Assembly (NCBI GenBank): GCA_017475035.1
Contig: JAFVGK010000030.1
Span: forward strand, 42,336-106,335
DNA length: 64,000 nt
Reading direction: 5' to 3'
From: Blautia sp.
Lineage (GTDB): Bacteria; Bacillota; Clostridia; Lachnospirales; Lachnospiraceae
Each line of letters starts with the position of its first letter. Positions within the stretch are counted from its first letter, which is position 1. Of this stretch, positions 2 through 63,557 are shown one piece after another. The notes beneath the pieces are model-generated. The model had not been told where the DNA came from and did not search any database. It saw only the letters and a program-made list of their open reading frames with translations. The position numbers and the translations under genes were made by a program.

Positions 2-136
2 GATGAAAAGCATAAGAAGGACGCCAGACGTGAAAGAAAACTCTGGAAGAAAATATATCCCGGAGAGGAGACAGATTTTATCTTCGGCAGCCCAACTGCC
101 GAAGCAGCAAAGTCGTCATCCGAAGACAATGCGTAA
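2..136 (+). CDS. 3' end of an unidentified gene with an R1-derived C-terminus
   Basis: Only the last 44 codons are inside the window, ending in TAA at 134-136. The visible N-terminal half is very lysine/arginine-rich (KHKKDARRERKLWKK), as in a cytoplasmic tail or nucleic-acid-binding end. The last 23 residues, beginning ETDFIFGSPT, are encoded by repeat R1a and match in frame the insert found inside AddA (ETDFVFGSPT). The reading frame therefore seems to have been extended by the repeat. The function cannot be told from this fragment. It may belong to the surface-polymer locus that follows, but that is only inferred from position. Confidence 0.5.
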   Translation, partial: DEKHKKDARRERKLWKKIYPGEETDFIFGSPTAEAAKSSSEDNA

Positions 137-164
137 ACGTACAAAACTTCGTTATTGTAAGGAG
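68..164 (+). repeat. R1 repeat copy a
   Basis: A roughly 97-bp element that contains a perfect hairpin (CTTCGGCAG, 5-base loop, CTGCCGAAG). It ends in a conserved block ACAAAACTTCGTTATTG followed by AAGGAG. It matches positions 36009-36103 inside addA over its whole length and is read in the same frame there. It is followed directly by a second, diverged copy. Confidence 0.8.
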
Positions 165-262
165 ACATATTTTGCCCACGGCTGCGCTTTTTGCAGGCGC
201 AGCTGCAGAATAGTCATCCGTGGTCATTGAGTCAACGTACAAAACTTCGTTTTGGAAGGAGG
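165..262 (+). repeat. R1 repeat copy b, supplies the ribosome binding site of the next gene
   Basis: A second, tandem R1 copy. The central hairpin is replaced by a different inverted repeat (GCTGCGC / GCGCAGC). The conserved end ACAAAACTTCGTTTTGG is followed by AAGGAGGGAG, which is the Shine-Dalgarno of the LicD-family gene starting at 270. Confidence 0.75.
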
Positions 263-14858: not shown

Positions 14859-15141
14859 TGATTGCATCGACAAAAGCCTGATTCTACGGATCGCTTCGCA
14901 GCGGAGCTGCTCTCGCCTCCCGGCTCGGTCGTTGCTAAACGCATCCTAAAGGACGCCTTCGGTGTGCCACTGGCATGCAGCAACCTACAGCCACTCAGAA
15001 TCCGCTCATTTTGAACAGAAGAATTTGCAAAAGCAAGTATGTATTAGTGCAAAATGGCTGCTTCCTCGTGTCTGTGGGCGACCCAATCTCATGCAAAAAT
15101 GAGCGAGCTCCTTTTTGCATGACCTTTTGTCGCCTGAATCA
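14859..15141 (-). repeat. R3 MITE-like repeat, longest copy f (in the 14706-15234 gap)
   Basis: A 283-bp copy in reverse orientation, with extra sequence of about 65 bp in the middle compared with the 218-220 bp copies. TACAAA is found on both flanks (14853-14858 and 15142-15147), a clean 6-bp target duplication. Of the rest of the gap, 14706-14858 holds a small GGTGCCGATCGGCATC hairpin but no gene, and 15142-15234 is an AT-rich leader. Confidence 0.8.
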
Positions 15142-21643: not shown

Positions 21644-21647
21644 TTAT

Positions 21648-21746
21648 AGTATGCGCACGAATTTACTGCGGAATCATGCCGCTTGCAGCGGCGTAAATCC
21701 ACGCAGTAAACGGATCAGAATGCAGGCATTTTATTCGTTTACTATA
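21648..21746 (+). repeat. R2 repeat copy a
   Basis: About 99 bp, from AGTATGCGCACGAATTTACTG to ATTCGTTTACTATAA. It contains the palindrome CCGCTTGCAGCGG and inverted GTAAAC/GTTTAC segments. The copy at 39721-39831 matches it closely in the opposite orientation. Confidence 0.75.
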
Positions 21747-31029: not shown

Positions 31030-31179
31030 ATGGAAAAGAAGACTGATTTTGAGTCAGCGAACAAAACTGTGTTAAGGGAGGAGACTGGTTTTGAGTCAGC
31101 GGACAAAGCTGTGTTAAGGAAGAAGGCTGGTTTTGAGCCAGCGGACGAAACTTCGTTATCTGAGGTGAGAAAATGGTAA
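31030..31179 (+). CDS. 49-codon mini-ORF made of three R1-derived 42-bp repeats
   Basis: ATG at 31030 opens a 49-residue frame consisting of three 14-residue units (EETGFESADKAVLR and variants) with starts 42 bases apart at 31041, 31083 and 31125, ending at TAA 31177-31179 and overlapping the trmL start by a few bases. The unit is a shortened R1 element lacking the central hairpin and is read in the same frame as the R1 insert in AddA. No good ribosome binding site is visible before the ATG, so translation is uncertain. It may act as a leader peptide for trmL through overlap, or be only a repeat that happens to be open. Confidence 0.4.
   Translation: MEKKTDFESANKTVLREETGFESADKAVLRKKAGFEPADETSLSEVRKW
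31041..31166 (+). repeat. R1 short-form repeat, triplicated (copy c)
   Basis: Three 42-bp tandem units of the hairpin-less R1 form. The last unit ends with GACGAAACTTCGTTATCTG followed by AGGTGAG, which serves as the ribosome binding site of trmL at 31173. Confidence 0.75.
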
Positions 31180-31736: not shown

Positions 31737-34457
31737 ATGAAAAGAAAAAGGTTATTATGCTTTGTTTTGGCTTTGACGTTAGGTGTTTCATGTACGATAA
31801 AGGCTTTTGCGCAGGAAAACGCGTCGGATTTTTCCGACGGTGAAGATAATGCTGGCTGCGGGGATCTTCCGGAATATATGCAGGAAGAGGGGGAAGGCTT
31901 TTATTTTGAAGAGTTTGAACCATATGAGAACCCGGATGATACCTTTGAAGAAGTGGGAGCAGTCGGTGAGGTTCCCTATATTCTTCCTTCAATGGAAGAG
32001 ATGGAGATCATACTCGCAAAACGATATAAAATATCAGAGGATCTGTTTTCATCTGAAGAAGACCTTGCCTTTGATGACGAGACAGACCTGATTTCGTCTG
32101 AAGAAGACCTTGCCTTTGATGACGAAACAGACCTGATTTCATCTGAAGAAGATATTACTTTTGATGACGGGACAGGTTTGTTTTCATCTGAGGAAGATCT
32201 ATCCTTCGATGACGAGACAGACCTGATTTCATCAGTTGAAAATGTCTCTTCAAATGATGACGCTGACATCGTTCCATCCTCTTCGGAAGGCTTGTTTTCG
32301 TCATCAACAGATGACGGGCTTTCCGCTGAAGATGATAATCTGCTTTTGCCTGCGGCAGAGGGTCCGGAGTTTTCATTGACAGATGCTGCATCCATGGATG
32401 ATGCTGCCGGCCGGCTTTCGTCTTCCCCGGATGCTTCCTTTACTGCGGAAGCAGCTGACGAATCCGATATTCTTTCCATGATCAGCAGCAGTGATAAAGC
32501 CGCCGCTGTCTATACGTTGAATATCGAAGAAGGCGAGGATCTTACGATTCCGCTGAATTATCTGATCCAAAGCGTCAAGGATGAGGCAACTGACGCAAAG
32601 CCGGTGAGGATCGTGATCCCGCCGGGAAGCTACGCGATCAGCGGAACCATCTTCCTGTACAGTAATCTGCAGCTTTGCGCAAAAGGAGCCAGGATTACAA
32701 AGACGACGCCTGTCAAGCAGATTCTTATGCGTCTGGGTGAGTTTAACGATAATTTTGGCGGAGGCTATGAGGGATTCCGCAATATTTCCGTTGAAGGAGG
32801 AACCTGGGATCTTAATTATGCTTCTGTTCCGGATGAAAAGAAAAGAGAAGACGGCGGCTTTGTCGGCTTTCGATTTGCCCATGCAGATCATCTCACCGTA
32901 AAGAATGTCAATTTCTGTAATAATCTGAAATCCCACTTTCTGGAGCTGGGCGGCGTTCGTCACGCGACAGTTACAGGCTGCTCCTTCAGCGGATATTGGG
33001 AGCCTTATAATATCGGAGGACAGGAATGTATTCAGATTGATGTCTGCTATGAATATTCGATTCCGGGTTATCCGCCCTATGACGGTACCGCGTGTGAAAA
33101 AATCAGGATTGAAAAGAATACCTTTACCCATGTTGTCGCCGGGGTTGGTTCCCACAGCATGACAATGGGTCTTCCCTATGACGGGATCAGTATTATCGGG
33201 AATTCTTTTCAGGATGTGCAAAAGCGGGCGCTCCGCTGTATGAATTTTACAAACAGTGTAATCCGGGATAATGTGATGACAGACGTATGTATAGGCGTGG
33301 ATGTAGAAAGCATTGCCGGAAGCAACGCCCATACCGTTCCGGACGGCGAAGTCCCTGACCCATATACCCTGGATGCCCAGGTAACCGTTTCCGGAAATGA
33401 GATTTCTCTATGTGGGACGAGGCTGTTCGGGGAATCCTTATGGCAGGCTTACGGAATCCGGGTTTTAGGGGCAAAGCCGACTGCCGAGGCCGAAGACCGT
33501 AAAACAGGGGTTTATCCCATCAGCCATGTCTATGTGAGGGACAATACGGTCGAAGGCCCCGGAAACGGGATCCTCCTGACGCTTGCAGATGAATGTGAGT
33601 TAAAAGACAACACCCTGTGCCTGGAAAAGCCGGAAAGCTATCCGAACCTGGGAGTGATTTTTTCTGCCTCCACCGATAATATTCTGGAAACAAATAAGAT
33701 AGAGGGTACGAAAAAATACGGGATCTATCTGTATAAAGGCACAAAGAAAATCTCCTCGCCCAGTTCCGGCAATCTTATCATTGACAATGAGGTGCAGAAC
33801 AACGGCGGAACAGGGATCTGGCTTGCGGCGAGTTCCGATCATGTACAGGTGCTGCAGAACCGTATCTGGTATAATGCCGGGGTTGGAATCAGGGTGGTGT
33901 CATGCCGGGGCACGGACATATGGAACAACCTTATTCAGGAAAACGGAGGAAGCGGAATCTATACAGAAGGCAAAAGCAAGGCTCTGTCTCTTCTGTCAAA
34001 TAAAGTATTGAGAAACAGAAGTTCCGGGATTTATCTTACGAACTGCAAGGTGAAAGCGCTGAGGGCCAACCAGGCATGTTACAATAAGAATTATGGCATT
34101 TACGCGAAAGATACGGCGTTTTCCGTTGCCGCGAAGAATCATACATACAGAAACGGGAAAGCCTGGCAGATTTACACTGCAGACAGTACAGGCCTGAACT
34201 CATTAAAAACACCTGTGAGCGCATTGATTACACCCAAAGTGAAATACATGAAGGGAACCGCCAAGGGAAGCACACGCATGCTGATCTATCGGGTGGAGAA
34301 CAACGGGAAAGTGAAGATATGCGCCGGAAAGACGAAAGCAAACGGAACGTATTCTCTTCTGGCGGCAGCGCAGAAGAAAAATACGATTTTGCTGTTGATT
34401 GCGCAGGACGCGTCGCAGAACGATGTCCGGGTCCGGGTAAAGGTAGCGAAAGGATAA
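31737..34457 (+). CDS. Secreted acidic-repeat protein with a right-handed beta-helix domain
   Basis: A protein of about 906 residues with a signal peptide (hydrophobic core CFVLALTLGVSCTIKAFA). An extremely acidic Ser/Asp/Glu region follows (residues about 100-190) made of 15-residue repeats such as SSEEDLAFDDETDLI. From about residue 255 to 825 there is a NosD/pectate-lyase-like parallel beta-helix with many N-x-[FIV]-x-x-x-G/N turns (NNGGTGIWLAASSDHVQVLQ and similar). Such folds bind or cleave polysaccharides; no catalytic residues can be assigned. The last 80 residues look like a small beta domain with KGTAKGSTRM. ATG 31737 has GGGAG nine bases upstream; ATG 31728 is in frame but sits on it. 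No LPXTG or membrane anchor is seen. Confidence 0.7.
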   Translation: MKRKRLLCFVLALTLGVSCTIKAFAQENASDFSDGEDNAGCGDLPEYMQEEGEGFYFEEFEPYENPDDTFEEVGAVGEVPYILPSMEEMEIILAKRYKISEDLFSSEEDLAFDDETDLISSEEDLAFDDETDLISSEEDITFDDGTGLFSSEEDLSFDDETDLISSVENVSSNDDADIVPSSSEGLFSSSTDDGLSAEDDNLLLPAAEGPEFSLTDAASMDDAAGRLSSSPDASFTAEAADESDILSMISSSDKAAAVYTLNIEEGEDLTIPLNYLIQSVKDEATDAKPVRIVIPPGSYAISGTIFLYSNLQLCAKGARITKTTPVKQILMRLGEFNDNFGGGYEGFRNISVEGGTWDLNYASVPDEKKREDGGFVGFRFAHADHLTVKNVNFCNNLKSHFLELGGVRHATVTGCSFSGYWEPYNIGGQECIQIDVCYEYSIPGYPPYDGTACEKIRIEKNTFTHVVAGVGSHSMTMGLPYDGISIIGNSFQDVQKRALRCMNFTNSVIRDNVMTDVCIGVDVESIAGSNAHTVPDGEVPDPYTLDAQVTVSGNEISLCGTRLFGESLWQAYGIRVLGAKPTAEAEDRKTGVYPISHVYVRDNTVEGPGNGILLTLADECELKDNTLCLEKPESYPNLGVIFSASTDNILETNKIEGTKKYGIYLYKGTKKISSPSSGNLIIDNEVQNNGGTGIWLAASSDHVQVLQNRIWYNAGVGIRVVSCRGTDIWNNLIQENGGSGIYTEGKSKALSLLSNKVLRNRSSGIYLTNCKVKALRANQACYNKNYGIYAKDTAFSVAAKNHTYRNGKAWQIYTADSTGLNSLKTPVSALITPKVKYMKGTAKGSTRMLIYRVENNGKVKICAGKTKANGTYSLLAAAQKKNTILLLIAQDASQNDVRVRVKVAKG

Positions 34458-34475: not shown

Positions 34476-37400
34476 ATGTCATTTTCGTGGACAGATGAGC
34501 AGAGGCAGGTGATCCGGCTTCGGAACAGGAGCCTTCTGGTAAGTGCCGCCGCCGGATCCGGAAAAACGGCTGTATTGGTTCAAAGGATTATCGGGAAAGT
34601 GACGGATCCGCAGCAGCCCCTGGACCTGGATCGTCTGCTTGTGATGACTTTTACACGGGCTGCAGCGGGAGAGATGAAAGAGAGGCTGACCCGCGCCCTG
34701 GAAGAGGAACTCTATCTTAATCCGGAAAACGAGCATCTTCTGCGTCAGATTAATCTGGTTCATATGGCGCAGATTACGACGATCGATGGATTTTGCGCGT
34801 ATCTGCTGCGCAATTATTTTCATCTGATTGACCTGGATCCCGGTTTTCGCGTGGCGGAGGAAGGGGAATTGCGGCTGCTTCGCGAGGATGTTGTCAATGA
34901 GCTTCTGGAAGAGGAGTATCAAAAAGGAACGCCTGAGTTTTACCGGTTTGTGGAAAGCTTTGCCCCGGGTAAAAATGATATTGCTTTAGGAGAACTGATC
35001 CAGAAGCTGTATAAATCCTCCATGAGCAACCCATACCCGGAAACCTGGCTGGATGAGTGTCTGAGTTCATTTGAAGAGGCTGATGTTTCCTCCTCTGACT
35101 GGATGCAGCAGCTTTGGGAAATGGCTTCTTCGGCTCTTGCAGAGGCAAAATGGATCAACCTTCAGGCACGGGAGCAATGCGCGCAGCCGGGTGGCCCGTA
35201 TCTGTATGAGGAAGCTTTGCAGGATGATCTGCTATTCCTTGGGGAACTGGAAAAGGCTTTGAAGGAAAGAGATTACGATACCGTTTCAGACCTGTTTTCA
35301 GATTATGCCTACACCAGGCTCTCCTCAAAGCGAATGAAGGATGTTGATGAAGAGAAAAAAAACCAGGTGAAAGCAAACCGTGAGCAGATGAAAGCTGTAC
35401 TGAAAGAGTGCCGGGAAAAGCTGTTTTGCGCGGATACCAGGGAGCTTATGGCAGCACAGCAGTTATGCCGGGTTCCGATTACAGAGCTGGTGCGGCTGGT
35501 GAAAAGGTTTTCCGTTCTTTTTTCGCAGAGAAAGCAGGAAAAAAATATCATAGATTTTTATGATATGGAGCATTTTGCACTGAACCTTCTGACGGATCAG
35601 AACGGAGAGTTCTCTCCTGCGGCAAGAGAACTCTCAGAACGATATGATGAAATCATGATCGATGAATACCAGGACAGCAATCTGGTACAGGAATACATCG
35701 CGCAGGCGGTTTCCGGATGGGCGAAGGGAAAAAAGAATCTGTTTATGGTGGGGGATGTAAAGCAGAGCATCTATCGTTTCCGCCTGGCAAGACCGGAGTT
35801 GTTTTTGGGGAAATCCCATACTTTCGCAAAAGAGGAAGGTCCGGAACAGAAAATCATCCTGAGCAGAAACTTTCGGAGCCGTAAACAGGTGCTTGACTGT
35901 GTCAATTTTATTTTCAGCCAGGTCATGGGAGAGGACCTTGGAGGGATCTGCTATGATGAAGAGGCGAAATTATACCCGGGGGCAGATTATCCTCCCGTAC
36001 CGGTTCAGGAGACTGATTTTGTCTTCGGCAGTCCGACTGTCAAAGCAGCAGAATCCTCATCCGGAAACAATGAGTCAGCGTACAACACTTCGATGTGGGA
36101 GGAAAGCCTGTACCAGACGGAAGTCATGGTAATCGAAAAAGACAGTGAAGAGCTCGACGAACTGTCTGCCCGGGAAGCAAGAGAAGCAGAGGCTGCGGCT
36201 GTCGCGGAGCGGATACAGGAGCTGGCAGGGACGCTTCCGATATGGGATCGAAGCCTGGAGAGATACCGGCCTGCCCGTTATGGGGATATGGTTGTGCTGC
36301 TTCGTTCTGCCCAGGGATGGGCGGAAGTATTCTCGGAGGTTTTTACTTCCCGCGGCATAGGCTGTTATGCCGCGGCGAGAACCGGTTATTTTTCCGCAAA
36401 GGAGGTTGTGACCATCCTGAATCTGCTGAGGGTCTGCGATAATCCCCTTCAGGATATTCCCCTGGCGGGAGTACTGATTTCGCCCGTTGTAGGTTTATCA
36501 AATGAGGAACTGGCAGTATTGCGGATACAGCGGAAAACCGGAAAACTATATGAGAGTATCCGCTCGTTTCTGGGTGACGGGCAGATAAGCCTGGAGGGAT
36601 TTGATTCGATACGTGCAAAGACGGAAGAAAAACTGGGAAGCTTTATCCGCATGCTGGATGATTTCCGGCAGCGGGCAGCCTATACCCCGATTCACAAACT
36701 GATCATGGAACTGCTGGAGGAGACGGGTTACGGGAGGTACGTGAAGGCTCTGCCGGATGGCTCTGTACGGGAAGCAAACCTCCTGATGCTTGTAGAAAAG
36801 GCTAAGGAATACGAAAAAACCAGTTATCACGGTCTGTTCCGGTTTATCCGCTATATCGAAAAGCTTCAGAAATATGAGATAGATTTTGGGGAAGCAAATC
36901 TTGCCGGAGAATCGGAAAACGTAGTACGGATCATGACGATTCATGCGAGCAAAGGATTGGAATTTCCGATTGTATTTGCGGCAGGGATGGGAAAGAGCTT
37001 TAATTTCATGGATCTGAATGAAGAATTGCTGATCCATCCCCGATTCGGCCTTGCCATGGACGTGATGCAGCCTGAAAAACGGCTGAAGACCAGGAGTGTT
37101 CAGAGAAATGTCCTGCGTCAGGTGCTGCGGAGCGAAACCCTGGGAGAAGAGCTTCGCATCCTGTATGTGGCTATGACAAGAGCGAAAGAAAAGCTCATAC
37201 TTGCAGGCACGCTGGGAAAACTGGAGGAAAAGGCTGAAACATACAGCCGGCTGTCCGCTCATACAGAGGAATTATTCCCTCTGTATGTAAGGGAACGGGC
37301 AAAGAGCTATTGGGACTTTGTCCTTCCTGCCTTATGCCGGCATCGCTGCTTCGATGCCTGGTTTGCGGAAAGGGGCTTTTTTACGCAAAAGCAGGATACC

Positions 37401-38276
37401 TTTTATAACGATGTTTCCTCCTTTATATGCCGGATTCTTACTCCCATAGAGCTTGCGGTCACGGAAGTGGAAAGGCAGGCGGATCAGGAAGAAAAAAGAC
37501 AGGCTCTTTGGTCCTTTGATCAGGAAAAGGTCTATGATCCGGTGATCCGGCAGCGACTGGAAGAATGCTATGGCTTTATTTATCCGTTTGCGTTTTTGAA
37601 AGAGCTTCCTGTCAAAATGAGCGTCTCAGAGCTGAAAAAAAGAAGCTGGCACAACGAAGAAGCCGGAGTCGTACTATATCAGGAGCCTGAAATCGTACCT
37701 CTGATTCCTGGATTTATTCAGGAAAAGCAGAGCACGGAAGAAAAACAGGGAGGCCTTGTCGGCGCGGACCGGGGAACCGCATACCATCGGTTTATGGAAT
37801 GCCTCGATTACAGGCGCACCTCTTCCCCGGAGGAACTGTCAGAACAGCTGGAGCTTCTGTTTGCGCAAAAGAAAATGACTGCCGCCCAGATTTCGTGCAT
37901 TGATCTGAAAGACATGGAGATTTTCCTGAAGACAGCTCTTGGCAAACGTATGAAGGCAGCCTGCCTTTCCGGGCTTTTGATCCGGGAGCAGCCTTTTGTC
38001 ATTTCAAAAAAAGCGAGAGAGATTGACGGCAGATGGGATACGGATGAATCAATCCTGATTCAGGGGATTATTGACGCCTATTTCCTGGAAGGAGATGAAC
38101 TGGTTCTGGTCGATTACAAAACAGACCGTGTCCGGCCGGAGGAAGAACAAAAGCTGATTGACCTGTATCATGTTCAGCTTGAAGATTATGCCGCCGCCTT
38201 GGAACGCCTGACAGGCCATACCGTAAAGGAAAAACTGATTTATTCCTTCGCGCTCGGGAAACAGCTTCAATTATAA
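34476..38276 (+). CDS. addA: ATP-dependent helicase/nuclease subunit AddA with an R1 insert
   Basis: A 1266-residue AddA protein. Walker A SAAAGSGKTAVL (Lys30), helicase motif II IMIDEYQDSN, motif VRIMTIHASKGLEFPIVFAAG and RILYVAMTRAKEKLIL are all present. The C-terminal RecB-type nuclease has LVDYKTDR (Asp1213, Lys1215) and GTAYHRFMECLDY. AddAB processes DNA ends for recombination repair. Residues 512-543 (ETDFVFGSPTVKAAES...) are encoded by an in-frame R1 repeat and lie in a variable stretch between helicase blocks, just before an acidic region (EKDSEELDELSAREAREAEA). The partner gene addB, usually directly upstream, is not in this window. Confidence 0.95.
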   Translation: MSFSWTDEQRQVIRLRNRSLLVSAAAGSGKTAVLVQRIIGKVTDPQQPLDLDRLLVMTFTRAAAGEMKERLTRALEEELYLNPENEHLLRQINLVHMAQITTIDGFCAYLLRNYFHLIDLDPGFRVAEEGELRLLREDVVNELLEEEYQKGTPEFYRFVESFAPGKNDIALGELIQKLYKSSMSNPYPETWLDECLSSFEEADVSSSDWMQQLWEMASSALAEAKWINLQAREQCAQPGGPYLYEEALQDDLLFLGELEKALKERDYDTVSDLFSDYAYTRLSSKRMKDVDEEKKNQVKANREQMKAVLKECREKLFCADTRELMAAQQLCRVPITELVRLVKRFSVLFSQRKQEKNIIDFYDMEHFALNLLTDQNGEFSPAARELSERYDEIMIDEYQDSNLVQEYIAQAVSGWAKGKKNLFMVGDVKQSIYRFRLARPELFLGKSHTFAKEEGPEQKIILSRNFRSRKQVLDCVNFIFSQVMGEDLGGICYDEEAKLYPGADYPPVPVQETDFVFGSPTVKAAESSSGNNESAYNTSMWEESLYQTEVMVIEKDSEELDELSAREAREAEAAAVAERIQELAGTLPIWDRSLERYRPARYGDMVVLLRSAQGWAEVFSEVFTSRGIGCYAAARTGYFSAKEVVTILNLLRVCDNPLQDIPLAGVLISPVVGLSNEELAVLRIQRKTGKLYESIRSFLGDGQISLEGFDSIRAKTEEKLGSFIRMLDDFRQRAAYTPIHKLIMELLEETGYGRYVKALPDGSVREANLLMLVEKAKEYEKTSYHGLFRFIRYIEKLQKYEIDFGEANLAGESENVVRIMTIHASKGLEFPIVFAAGMGKSFNFMDLNEELLIHPRFGLAMDVMQPEKRLKTRSVQRNVLRQVLRSETLGEELRILYVAMTRAKEKLILAGTLGKLEEKAETYSRLSAHTEELFPLYVRERAKSYWDFVLPALCRHRCFDAWFAERGFFTQKQDTFYNDVSSFICRILTPIELAVTEVERQADQEEKRQALWSFDQEKVYDPVIRQRLEECYGFIYPFAFLKELPVKMSVSELKKRSWHNEEAGVVLYQEPEIVPLIPGFIQEKQSTEEKQGGLVGADRGTAYHRFMECLDYRRTSSPEELSEQLELLFAQKKMTAAQISCIDLKDMEIFLKTALGKRMKAACLSGLLIREQPFVISKKAREIDGRWDTDESILIQGIIDAYFLEGDELVLVDYKTDRVRPEEEQKLIDLYHVQLEDYAAALERLTGHTVKEKLIYSFALGKQLQL
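36009..36103 (+). repeat. R1 repeat inserted in frame in addA (copy d)
   Basis: 95 bp matching R1a (68-164) along the length with scattered differences and no frame change. The central hairpin has decayed (CTTCGGCAG versus CTGTCAAAG), and the end reads ACAACACTTCGATGTGGGAGG. The frame encodes ETDFVFGSPT and later NESAYNTSMWEE, the same frame used at the window start. Confidence 0.8.
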
Positions 38277-39720: not shown

Positions 39721-39831
39721 TTATTGTAAACGAATAAGTGCTTGCATTTTGATTCGTTTACCGCGCCGGATTACGCCGCTGCAAGCGGCATGATTCTGCA
39801 GTAAATTCGTGCGCGTTATACTCCTTACAGG
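39721..39831 (-). repeat. R2 repeat copy c
   Basis: A reverse-orientation copy of about 110 bp. Its complement reads GCGCACGAATTTACTGCAG then CCGCTTGCAGCGGCG and ends in ATTCGTTTACAATAA, matching 21648-21746 almost throughout. It follows the binding-protein gene. Confidence 0.75.
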
Positions 39832-44258: not shown

Positions 44259-44323
44259 TCGGAAGATAAAACCGTCGTCCGAAGACGGTGAGTCAACGTA
44301 TAAAACTTCGTTATGGGAGGGGG
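44259..44323 (+). repeat. R1 repeat copy e, supplies the ribosome binding site of the next gene
   Basis: A shortened R1 copy: a CCGTC/GACGG hairpin, then GAGTCAACGTATAAAACTTC, GTTATGGGAGGGGGAG. The purine-rich end is the Shine-Dalgarno of the gene starting at 44334. Confidence 0.7.
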
Positions 44324-44333
44324 AGTGAGGCTT

Positions 44334-45302
44334 ATGGGGCAGGGGAAACAATATCAGATTGGTTCCTTTAACGCACGCCAGCTGTCACGCAGCACGTCTA
44401 CAAGGATTAAAGCTGCGATGATTGCCAAATTGATCCGCCATGAACAGATGGACCTGATCGGCATGCAGGAGGTGCTGGATGCCGACGCCCTCATTCCGAT
44501 CATGGCAGTTCTGGGTACGGATTGGGACAAGGTCTGGCTTTGTTCCCGTCCAAAGCCGGGTATCAAAGATCCGGACCATGATCCTCGGGGAGAAGGCTAT
44601 GCTTTCATATGGAATAAAAGAAGGCTGCGCCTGATCCAGACAAATCTGCTCAGCGGAGAGAAAGAACCATACGAACCCCAGGTATACAATGAGTACAGGG
44701 TAGATTTTAAACAGGAGCTCATGGAGCTTGTACGGGATCCGGTGTATGGAAGATTCACGGTATCAGGGCTTGGCGGAGGAAATTTTGAACTGCGTATTCT
44801 CATGGATCATATTCGTTTTAATGGGATTGACGAAGAAAAGGACAGGAGATTCTGGAAGCTTCGGCAGAACGAGTTTGATGTTCTGACAAAATCCATTCTG
44901 CCGAAGCTGGAGGATATGACCTACGGGACGCAGATGCCTTCGTATACCATCCTGATGGGAGATTATAATATGAACCTGCGCCGGTTCTGGACGAAAAAGC
45001 CTTTTCTGGAAACGCCGCAGGATGGCCTGGCACTTGGAGACAAAAAGATTGTCACCGTGCAGGATCAGCCGACGAAGCTGCGCAGTCCGAATTACAAGAA
45101 ACCGAACGAGCCTACTGTAGGTTATCTTCACAATTTTGACCATTTTTCTTATAATATCAACCGATTGTCTGCCCTCCATCCGGCATGCAGGAGAGTGGAT
45201 GTGATGGGAACCGGTTATTACAGCGAATACTATGGAGATTATGATCGGTATCGACTGGAAATATCGGATCATATACCGATTATTCTGACAATCAGTCCGT
45301 GA
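44334..45302 (+). CDS. Endonuclease/exonuclease/phosphatase-fold protein
   Basis: A 322-residue soluble protein. The fold's key motifs are visible: IGSFNARQLS (start strand), LIGMQEVLDA (catalytic Gln-Glu), LMGDYNMNLR (Asp-Asn pair) and LEISDHIPIILTI (Ser-Asp-His). This family cleaves DNA, RNA, phosphoinositides or similar phosphodiesters; the substrate here is unknown. No signal peptide is seen, so it acts in the cytoplasm. The start ATG 44334 is preferred to ATG 44313, which lies in the R1 repeat. It is followed 16 bases later by a large uncharacterised protein and the two probably form one unit. Confidence 0.75.
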   Translation: MGQGKQYQIGSFNARQLSRSTSTRIKAAMIAKLIRHEQMDLIGMQEVLDADALIPIMAVLGTDWDKVWLCSRPKPGIKDPDHDPRGEGYAFIWNKRRLRLIQTNLLSGEKEPYEPQVYNEYRVDFKQELMELVRDPVYGRFTVSGLGGGNFELRILMDHIRFNGIDEEKDRRFWKLRQNEFDVLTKSILPKLEDMTYGTQMPSYTILMGDYNMNLRRFWTKKPFLETPQDGLALGDKKIVTVQDQPTKLRSPNYKKPNEPTVGYLHNFDHFSYNINRLSALHPACRRVDVMGTGYYSEYYGDYDRYRLEISDHIPIILTISP

Positions 45303-47631: not shown

Positions 47632-47691
47632 AAAAAGGGGCGCTTTTCTGCCGGCATAGAAAATCTATACCGGAGAAAAGATGCCCCTTTT
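47632..47691. terminator. Strong bidirectional-type terminator
   Basis: AAAAGGGGCG..TTTTCT and CCGG/TAGA inner stems pair with TCTA/CCGG, AGAAAAG and GCCCCTTTT, a stem of about 22 pairs with A-run and T-run on the two sides. It separates the rightward helical-protein gene from the leftward response regulator gene. Confidence 0.85.
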
Positions 47692-47741
47692 ATAGTATTT
47701 GCACGAATTTACAGTGAAATCATGCCGCTTGCATATTATCA
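47692..47741 (+). repeat. R2 repeat, 5' fragment (copy d)
   Basis: TATAGTATTTGCACGAATTTAC then GAAATCATGCCGCTTGCA match the first 45 bases of R2. The rest of the element is missing. It sits directly after the terminator. Confidence 0.6.
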
Positions 47742-63250: not shown

Positions 63251-63529
63251 GGTTCCTTTGGCGTTTGCTGATCGCGGGTTCCTCTGGCGTCGAATTACAG
63301 CTGGTATTCTTTACAAAAGCCATACACATCCGGTTCCTCTGGCGTTCACAGAGTGGGTTCCTTTGGCGTTGGATCTATGGCTGATAATGGTTAATACAAC
63401 CGTAAGACCTGGTTCCTTTGGCGTTCGCACGGCGGGTTCCTCTGGCGTTGGGCTTGCGGCTGATGATTAAACGATTTCTCTCCGGAATACGGTTCCTTTG
63501 GCGTTCGCACGGCGGGTTCCTCTGGCGTT
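63251..63529 (+). repeat. Paired iteron array, probable phage replication origin (fills 63229-63557)
   Basis: Eight copies of a 15-mer GGTTCCTYTGGCGTT, starting at 63251, 63277, 63332, 63356, 63411, 63435, 63491 and 63515. They form four pairs: within a pair the starts are 24-26 bases apart, and pairs recur every 79-81 bases. The sequence between pairs is not conserved, except that the last two pairs share an identical 9-base inner spacer (CGCACGGCG). The array lies 29 bases before a replication-type protein gene. It is best read as binding sites for a replication initiator. Confidence 0.75.
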
Positions 63530-63557
63530 GGATTCCCGGGAGCAGAGAGGGTTGGAA

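Follow-up and report, generated by a model that had tools for sequence, protein, structure and literature searches.

The window analyzed here, a stretch of 64,000 nucleotides from the genome of a Blautia species, contains the gene addA (34476..38276, forward strand). It encodes a protein of 1266 amino acids with UvrD helicase and PD-(D/E)XK domains (Pfam), and its best PDB match is an AddA (3u44_A). A copy of a dispersed repeat, R1, is located inside this gene on the same strand (36008..36103, family A; codons GAG ACT GAT ... GAG GAA). A preliminary description of the locus claimed that positions 36009-36103 match positions 68-164 at the window start, and this is borne out by 76 identical nucleotides at 95 positions and an alignment score of 109, whereas none of 2000 mononucleotide shuffles scored above 22. 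The claimed in-frame reading inside AddA, where the copy is read as ETDFVFGSPTVKAAESSSGNNESAYNTSMWEE, was also found, and the repeat at the window start indeed closes a gene, as had been proposed. This copy (67..157, forward strand, family A) forms the C-terminal tail of a gene that ends at about position 135, was assigned to the LicD family with 28.8 bits, and reads ETDFIFGSPTAEAAKSSSEDNA-stop at its end within the repeat; the script classified the copy as intergenic, because the window start truncates its gene. It is followed by a copy with a family B hairpin (161..261, forward strand), the GGAAGGAG end of which lies 9 nt ahead of the start of the gene 270-1205. A covariance model of R1 matched the copy in addA (36008-36104) with 91.7 bits and an E value of 2.5e-17 and the copy at 161-261 with 99.9 bits, both by construction, because they are among the 54 source copies of the model. 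Three tandem short forms of 42 bp (31037..31162, forward strand) are situated directly upstream of a SpoU-family gene at 31173. The preliminary description had included them in the repeat; they are real, but are much weaker members without the hairpin (covariance-model E values of 7e-4, 0.03, and 0.085). A further, partial copy with a shortened hairpin (44262..44322, forward strand) precedes a gene starting at 44334. Chance resemblance as an explanation for R1 was ruled out by the shuffle scores and the covariance-model E values.

None of the R1 copies of the window matched an Rfam family at the gathering score, RF01699 included. At this score, the window contains three Clostridiales-1 RNAs (RF01699; 3030-3227 and 10269-10468 on the forward strand, 14940-15141 on the reverse strand) and one tRNA. 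Clostridiales-1 RNA resembles R1 in that it is structured and recurs at several places of the window, but its matches fall elsewhere than those of R1. Related pieces of 40-100 nt recur at 1345, 4915, 11747, 21581, and 25801, and thus this RNA also acts as a dispersed repeat in the host genome. In addition, a beta-helix/NosD-type protein (31737-34457) contains an acidic repeat of 15 residues (SSEEDLAFDDETDLI), which is encoded by a 45-bp tandem repeat at 31999-32278, a 12-nt in-frame tandem repeat of the acidic SEELTGEP type is present at 2052-2178 in an open reading frame (1529-2989) for which no Pfam match was found, and repeats of about 80 nt containing GGTTCCT(C/T)TGGCGTT are located near the window end (63332-63555).

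The consensus of 31 copies defines R1 as a unit of about 97 nt, which begins with GGAGACTGATTTTG and ends with TTTTGGGAGGAG. The 5' terminus starts at a GGAG of the repeat itself, and the 3' terminus is GGAGGAG. Three families share the 3' half and have insert lengths of 93 nt (A), 97 nt (B), and 92 nt (C), of which only the first is divisible by three. Copies were counted in two sets, from which matches above an E value of 1e-3 and overlapping weaker matches had been removed before classification. The first set comprised 864 kb of the host genome, that is, eight contig pieces plus the window, and a profile search at an E value of up to 1e-3 yielded 130 copies after removal of overlaps, a density that may be high, because the contigs were chosen from those that already had matches. 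At least 80 of the 97 positions were covered by 92 of these copies, and the covariance model at the same threshold reported 101 matches in the 800 kb without the window. The first set consisted of 114 intergenic copies, 10 internal sense copies, 2 internal antisense copies (one of them a 44-nt match), and 4 C-terminal copies. The second set covered 769 kb of different contigs and of a further part of contig C143. It contained 91 copies, of which 82 were intergenic, 3 internal (1 sense, 2 antisense), and 2 C-terminal, along with 3 N-terminal overlaps and 1 other case, the last two classes representing doubtful start calls. Pooling of both sets gave 221 copies in 1.63 Mb, which extrapolates to about 690 copies in 5.08 Mb. 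Copies from unrelated loci can be nearly identical, with 99.0% identity across 96 nt. About 84% of the surveyed sequence is coding, yet 196 of the 221 copies were classified as intergenic, 11 as sense copies in genes (representing 9 insertions), and 4 as antisense copies in genes. The genes were called with a home-made script based on codon usage, so that a gene disrupted by R1 would escape detection and its copy would be tallied as intergenic.

The abundance of R1 is very different in other members of the genus. The covariance model, at an E value of up to 1e-3, reported matches in 7 of 63 other genomes, and no match in the remaining 56, in a survey with strict filters and scoring of up to 65 candidates per genome. 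A DNA search of 60 other genomes revealed R1 in only one (G048), where it was weak, and a further genome (G070) had few copies, namely 7 in 400 kb at an E value of up to 0.05. Other genomes of the genus contain copies of the same architecture but of different sequence, e.g., GGAGCC...GGCATCC in genome G014. A 23-base pattern with two degenerate positions, searched for as an exact match, was not found in the GTDB r220 genomes or in IMG/VR, in a search that may have omitted near records, and blastn of R1 against phages and plasmids gave zero matches.

The first ca. 57 nt of R1 are predicted to fold into a hairpin of 22 bp, which covaries across the three families. In 54 copies, 89.4% of the hairpin cells are paired, and changes on both sides were found at 12 pairs in 105 cells, compared to 8-18 cells for slid controls. 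The hairpin was named from single folds and then counted, because the RNAalifold consensus was weak (7 pairs), and the 54 copies were chosen by hand from 85 copies with an assigned family (28 of 53 in family A, 20 of 26 in B, 6 of 6 in C). Both procedures favor the hairpin; nonetheless, the slid versions score far lower. One family B copy with a different fold was excluded from the count. The hairpin includes its own tag, as the first GGA of the GGAG pairs with TCC, and alignment of the R1 ends GGAGACTG and GGGAGGAG revealed no inverted relation, so that terminal inverted repeats are absent. A second hairpin is predicted just ahead of the terminal GGAGGAG. It is clear in family C (mean energy of -3.82 versus -0.84 after shuffling, 6 copies) and weak in family A (-2.58 versus -1.93, 28 copies) and family B (-1.84 versus -1.58, 20 copies).

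Two copies deviate from these folds. A family B copy (L069:12071-12170) has a predicted fold that is one long near-perfect palindrome of -55 kcal/mol, which suggests that a template switch may have corrected the hairpin. Another, R1-like copy (C53 59693-59772) contains TGATTCCGCAGTAAATTCGTGCGCATACTATAA and combines letters similar to those of another dispersed repeat, present at 21644-21731, 39736-39814, and 47690-47733, with the 3' end of R1, and therefore hairpins may be exchanged between repeat families.

By its position, the terminal GGAGGAG of R1 is the putative Shine-Dalgarno sequence of the following gene. Start codons that open at least 60 codons were counted independently of the called gene starts, and such a codon lies 4-14 nt beyond R1 for 109 of the 166 intergenic copies whose 3' end is intact, compared to 25, 27, and 37 at control offsets. 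The result was alike in both sets, with 66 of 97 copies in the first (controls 12, 15, and 23) and 43 of 69 in the second (controls 13, 12, and 14). Nearly all of these 97 copies of the first set (92/97) have the same orientation as the next gene. Among 1242 called starts, 109 have an R1 end 3-20 nt ahead of them, a number that is affected by the preference of the gene caller for starts behind Shine-Dalgarno-like motifs. When starts were picked blind to such motifs, only 41 of the 97 copies had a start within 4-18 nt behind R1, which speaks against this role; for intergenic GGAGGAG motifs outside of R1, the number was 6 of 24. The spacing between the R1 end and the start peaks at 7-8 nt, and this spacing as well as the A-rich left flank of R1 resemble the GGAG sites of 304 genes without R1. 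The distances from the upstream stop codon are also alike, with medians of 146 nt for R1 and 137 nt for the R1-free GGAG sites.

Alternatively, R1 could be a domesticated or always-regulatory RNA of the 5'-UTR, i.e., a riboregulator at the Shine-Dalgarno sequence, with the copies in coding regions as accidents. The number of starts preceded by R1, the covariation of the hairpin and the pairing of its first GGA with TCC, and the second hairpin ahead of the Shine-Dalgarno sequence, clear in family C and weak in the other two, are in agreement with that explanation. However, the genes that contain or neighbor R1 are of unrelated kinds, the copy number ranges from the extrapolated 690 in the host to no reported match in 56 of the 63 genus genomes, and the copies within genes and the adjoining copies described below imply mobility. 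The covariation could equally be demanded by a transposase. We therefore regard a purely regulatory nature of R1 as unlikely.

The copy in addA accounts for AddA residues of about 511-543, which lie within a linker of variable length. The linker has 51 residues here versus 18-25 at 29 loci of relatives and 19 in most members of the genus, and realignment of 27 of these loci gave 61 versus 28-36 residues. The PDB match is interrupted at the insertion (query 516/547). AddA of the relatives is at best 54% identical, and the relatives are too distant for precise empty sites to be read. A placement of the host near Parablautia is based solely on AddA matches of 40-41%. In Parablautia intestinalis (L124), the linker contains an unrelated extra stretch of about 25 residues after GAVYPE. 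The comparison shows that this loop, as judged from the aligned proteins, takes up insertions of differing origin and tolerates length changes, and therefore the case for an insertion of R1 rests on the letters and not on the extra residues. R1-like letters were absent from the AddA proteins of the 11 named relatives that were aligned (14 loci had been found), and in the alignment they were present at none of the 29 loci. The proposal of the preliminary description, that these residues are a lineage-specific insertion, is thus upheld among the AddA proteins compared.

Further conserved genes contain R1 in the host genome. CobB/CbiA contains three tandem copies, and its match to each of 12 relatives breaks between residues 227-241 and 345-357. 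In a HelD-like helicase, the segment with R1 comprises 56 residues versus 25 in 12 of 12 relatives; here the flanking codons are ATG GAG ... GAG GAG GAG AAC, and the 31 additional residues are accounted for by a 93-nt insert after GGAG. A BadF-type protein contains two copies, one in each of the open sense frames, and has 201 versus 119-123 residues in 9 of 9 relatives. For CitG, the Pfam match spans 314 residues for 282 profile positions. The copies in a MalG-type permease, a DUF2264 protein, and a short secreted protein were seen in the host sequence alone, and for the permease the relatives match solely from residue 272 or so onward. Counting the CobB tandem once, these cases and AddA represent 9 sense insertions inside genes. 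R1 also generates C-terminal extensions of about 33 residues in two transporter permeases, an ABC protein, and a NuoF-like protein, as does the window copy at 67-157 in its gene.

The preliminary description assumed that R1 is open in a single frame and that this is a special coding property of the repeat. Neither part was supported: the consensus of family A has four open frames, two of them sense and two antisense, and the frame usage in genes is what the codon phase of GGAG predicts. The GGAG motifs of called genes are in phase '..G GAG' 2826 times, in phase 'GGA G..' 1819 times, and in phase '.GG AG.' 369 times. Phase 'GGA G..' puts a stop codon into the R1 reading, and therefore the frame labeled ETDF is predicted for 88% of insertions among the open sense frames. 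Among the insertions inside genes, this frame is used by 7 of 8 in the first set and by the single one in the second (8/9 pooled, p 1.0 versus 88%). When C-terminal copies are included, the share is 10/12 for the first set and 11/15 for both sets together (p 0.09 versus 88%), because the two C-terminal copies of the second set both start in the other frame (0/2). The count suggested earlier, covering 1.63 Mb of the genome, showed this frame to be the commoner one in genes, but the bias was gone once the GGAG phase was considered.

R1 could also be a selfish coding palindrome of the Rickettsia type, for which the frame itself is selected and insertion into genes is the way of life. In-frame copies in conserved genes are as expected for such an element, and so is the insert length of family A, which is divisible by three, in contrast to families B and C. 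Internal copies in genes are indeed biased towards family A, with 10 of 53 versus 0 of 26 for family B in the first set (p 0.026; 14/53 versus 0/26 with terminal overlaps, p 0.003), a non-significant 3 of 50 versus 0 of 13 in the second set (7/50 versus 1/13 with terminal overlaps, p 1), and 13 of 103 versus 0 of 39 pooled (Fisher p 0.02). Against such a way of life, just 15 of the 221 copies are inside genes in spite of the high coding density, 4 of these 15 are antisense (one merely a 44-nt match), R1 can also be read through in a second sense frame and in two antisense frames, and the frame bias matches the GGAG expectation. A coding palindrome is thus quite improbable, and the view of R1 as a chiefly coding element was not confirmed, because the 196 intergenic copies are typically at the position of a ribosome-binding site.

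The joints between neighboring copies indicate where R1 inserts. Joints were counted for R1 copies with an E value of up to 0.05 (242 copies) on the same strand with a gap of -15 to 30. This yielded 35 pairs, 23 of which had both abutting ends aligned, while 12 were set aside for an unaligned end. All 23 judged pairs join via a shared tetranucleotide, 21 via GGAG and 2 via GAAG. At the level of joints, R1 thus resembles REP/RAYT and IS200/IS605-derived elements, which insert beside a short, constant target and generate no long duplication. The overlap of the projected ends is 4 nt in 17 pairs and 7 nt in 6 pairs, which implies that the next copy starts at either GGAG within the GGAGGAG of the previous copy. 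The family labels differ in 14 of the 23 pairs, and both members have at least 80 nt in 8 of these 14, although a label is uncertain for short partial copies, as the families have their 3' half in common.

If R1 had spread by recombination, tandem or ectopic, between short GGAG sequences, no transposase would be required. The GGAG at each end of R1 would permit it, tandem arrays are present, and the searches for a transposase remained empty. However, the joined pairs with different family labels are not simple duplications, and hence not products of slippage. A homology of four bases is also insufficient for the distribution of a repeat over hundreds of sites. Recombination as the cause of the spread therefore appears very improbable.

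Taken together, R1 is probably a non-autonomous mobile repeat that targets GGAG and restores a ribosome-binding site. R1 would insert immediately 3' of a GGAG on one strand only, and the target would thereby reappear at the other end of the repeat. Insertion into a Shine-Dalgarno site would be nearly harmless, because the gene regains such a site at an identical spacing. Insertion at a GAG codon would add 31 codons (93 nt), provided that the copy belongs to family A and the frame is free of stops. The least certain step is the mobilization itself, for which an enzyme acting in trans by single-strand transposition of the IS200/IS605 (Y1) kind may be responsible. Two features suggest such a mechanism: the hairpin is located at the target end, and the tetranucleotide is fixed. 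Elements of the IS200/IS605 type insert on the 3' side of a short target of constant sequence. No mobilizing gene for R1 and no Y1 gene flanked by the repeat were seen in the host assembly, although this consists of 200 contigs and is 93.6% complete, and PF01797 was represented by one fragment at a contig end, without R1 nearby. In addition, 17 sequences with Y1 genes contained no convincing R1 (best E value 0.17), and the number of Y1 genes did not correspond to the number of R1 copies across 64 genomes. These searches gave no support for a link between R1 and Y1/RAYT proteins.

Several known repeat families share features with R1. The Rickettsia palindromic elements (RPEs), to which the preliminary description likened R1, are palindromic repeats of about 100-150 bp, which are intergenic as well as fused in frame into unrelated conserved genes, including genes for DNA repair (PMC2229807, PMC10969869, PMC3733652). 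The likeness holds as a functional parallel, i.e., in-frame insertion into several conserved genes. Like RPEs, R1 is inserted in frame where the orthologs lack it (AddA 29/29, CobB and HelD 12/12). However, its hairpin spans only the 5' ca. 57 of 97 nt, so that R1 is not a palindrome as a whole, its end motif is GGAG in contrast to the CGTC reported for R. conorii RPEs (PMC3733652), most copies carry a Shine-Dalgarno sequence, and the host belongs to another phylum. REPs consist of a hairpin beside a tetranucleotide tag, are mobile and lineage-specific, and have some copies in genes, including recB (PMC3733652). R1 shares the hairpin next to a tetranucleotide tag with these REP/RAYT systems and with IS200/IS605-derived elements. 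The GTAG tag of REPs is free of the stem, whereas the GGAG of R1 is paired within it, and R1 is about 97 nt long with a fixed 3' half and was not seen to be linked to a Y1 gene in the host assembly. Furthermore, R1 is located upstream of genes, while REPs are mostly downstream of coding regions (PMC3733652).

BOX, RUP, and SPRITE of Streptococcus pneumoniae, NEMIS/Correia elements, and ERIC are likewise non-autonomous structured repeats of bacteria, some of which encode parts of open reading frames (PMC3049150, PMC2229807, PMC10969869). R1 is set apart from them, on the basis of their descriptions, by the lack of terminal inverted repeats and the consistent location at a Shine-Dalgarno site. 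The lack of terminal inverted repeats also distinguishes it from MITEs of the DDE type. In-frame fusions of small repeats are known for RPE, ERIC, NEMIS, and YPAL, and REPs are present in repair genes including recB (PMC2229807, PMC10969869, PMC3733652, and PMC3049150). These papers report palindromes inserted in frame from Rickettsia and from several other bacteria, most of which are Gram-negative. A literature search of open-licence texts, covering titles and the starts of abstracts, retrieved no report of a repeat in Lachnospiraceae or of a repeat that targets Shine-Dalgarno sequences.

A comparable in-frame outcome has now been found in a gut bacterium of the Lachnospiraceae type, and it has a simple cause that counting can test, namely, a GGAG target, an insert that is divisible by three, and the codon phase. 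It is conceivable, albeit tentative, that R1 targets the Shine-Dalgarno motif itself, rebuilds it at its far end, and thereby colonizes hundreds of gene starts almost without cost. If this is true, about 9% of the sampled called genes (109/1242) would be translated from ribosome-binding sites that derive from R1 and lie behind a common hairpin. In effect, R1 would be a mobile leader for translation, through which these genes could be under joint control. A repeat that targets and restores the Shine-Dalgarno sequence would be a new answer to the question how a compact genome can contain hundreds of copies of a repeat with little harm. R1 also offers many natural pairs, so that the effect of one leader can be measured on many genes.
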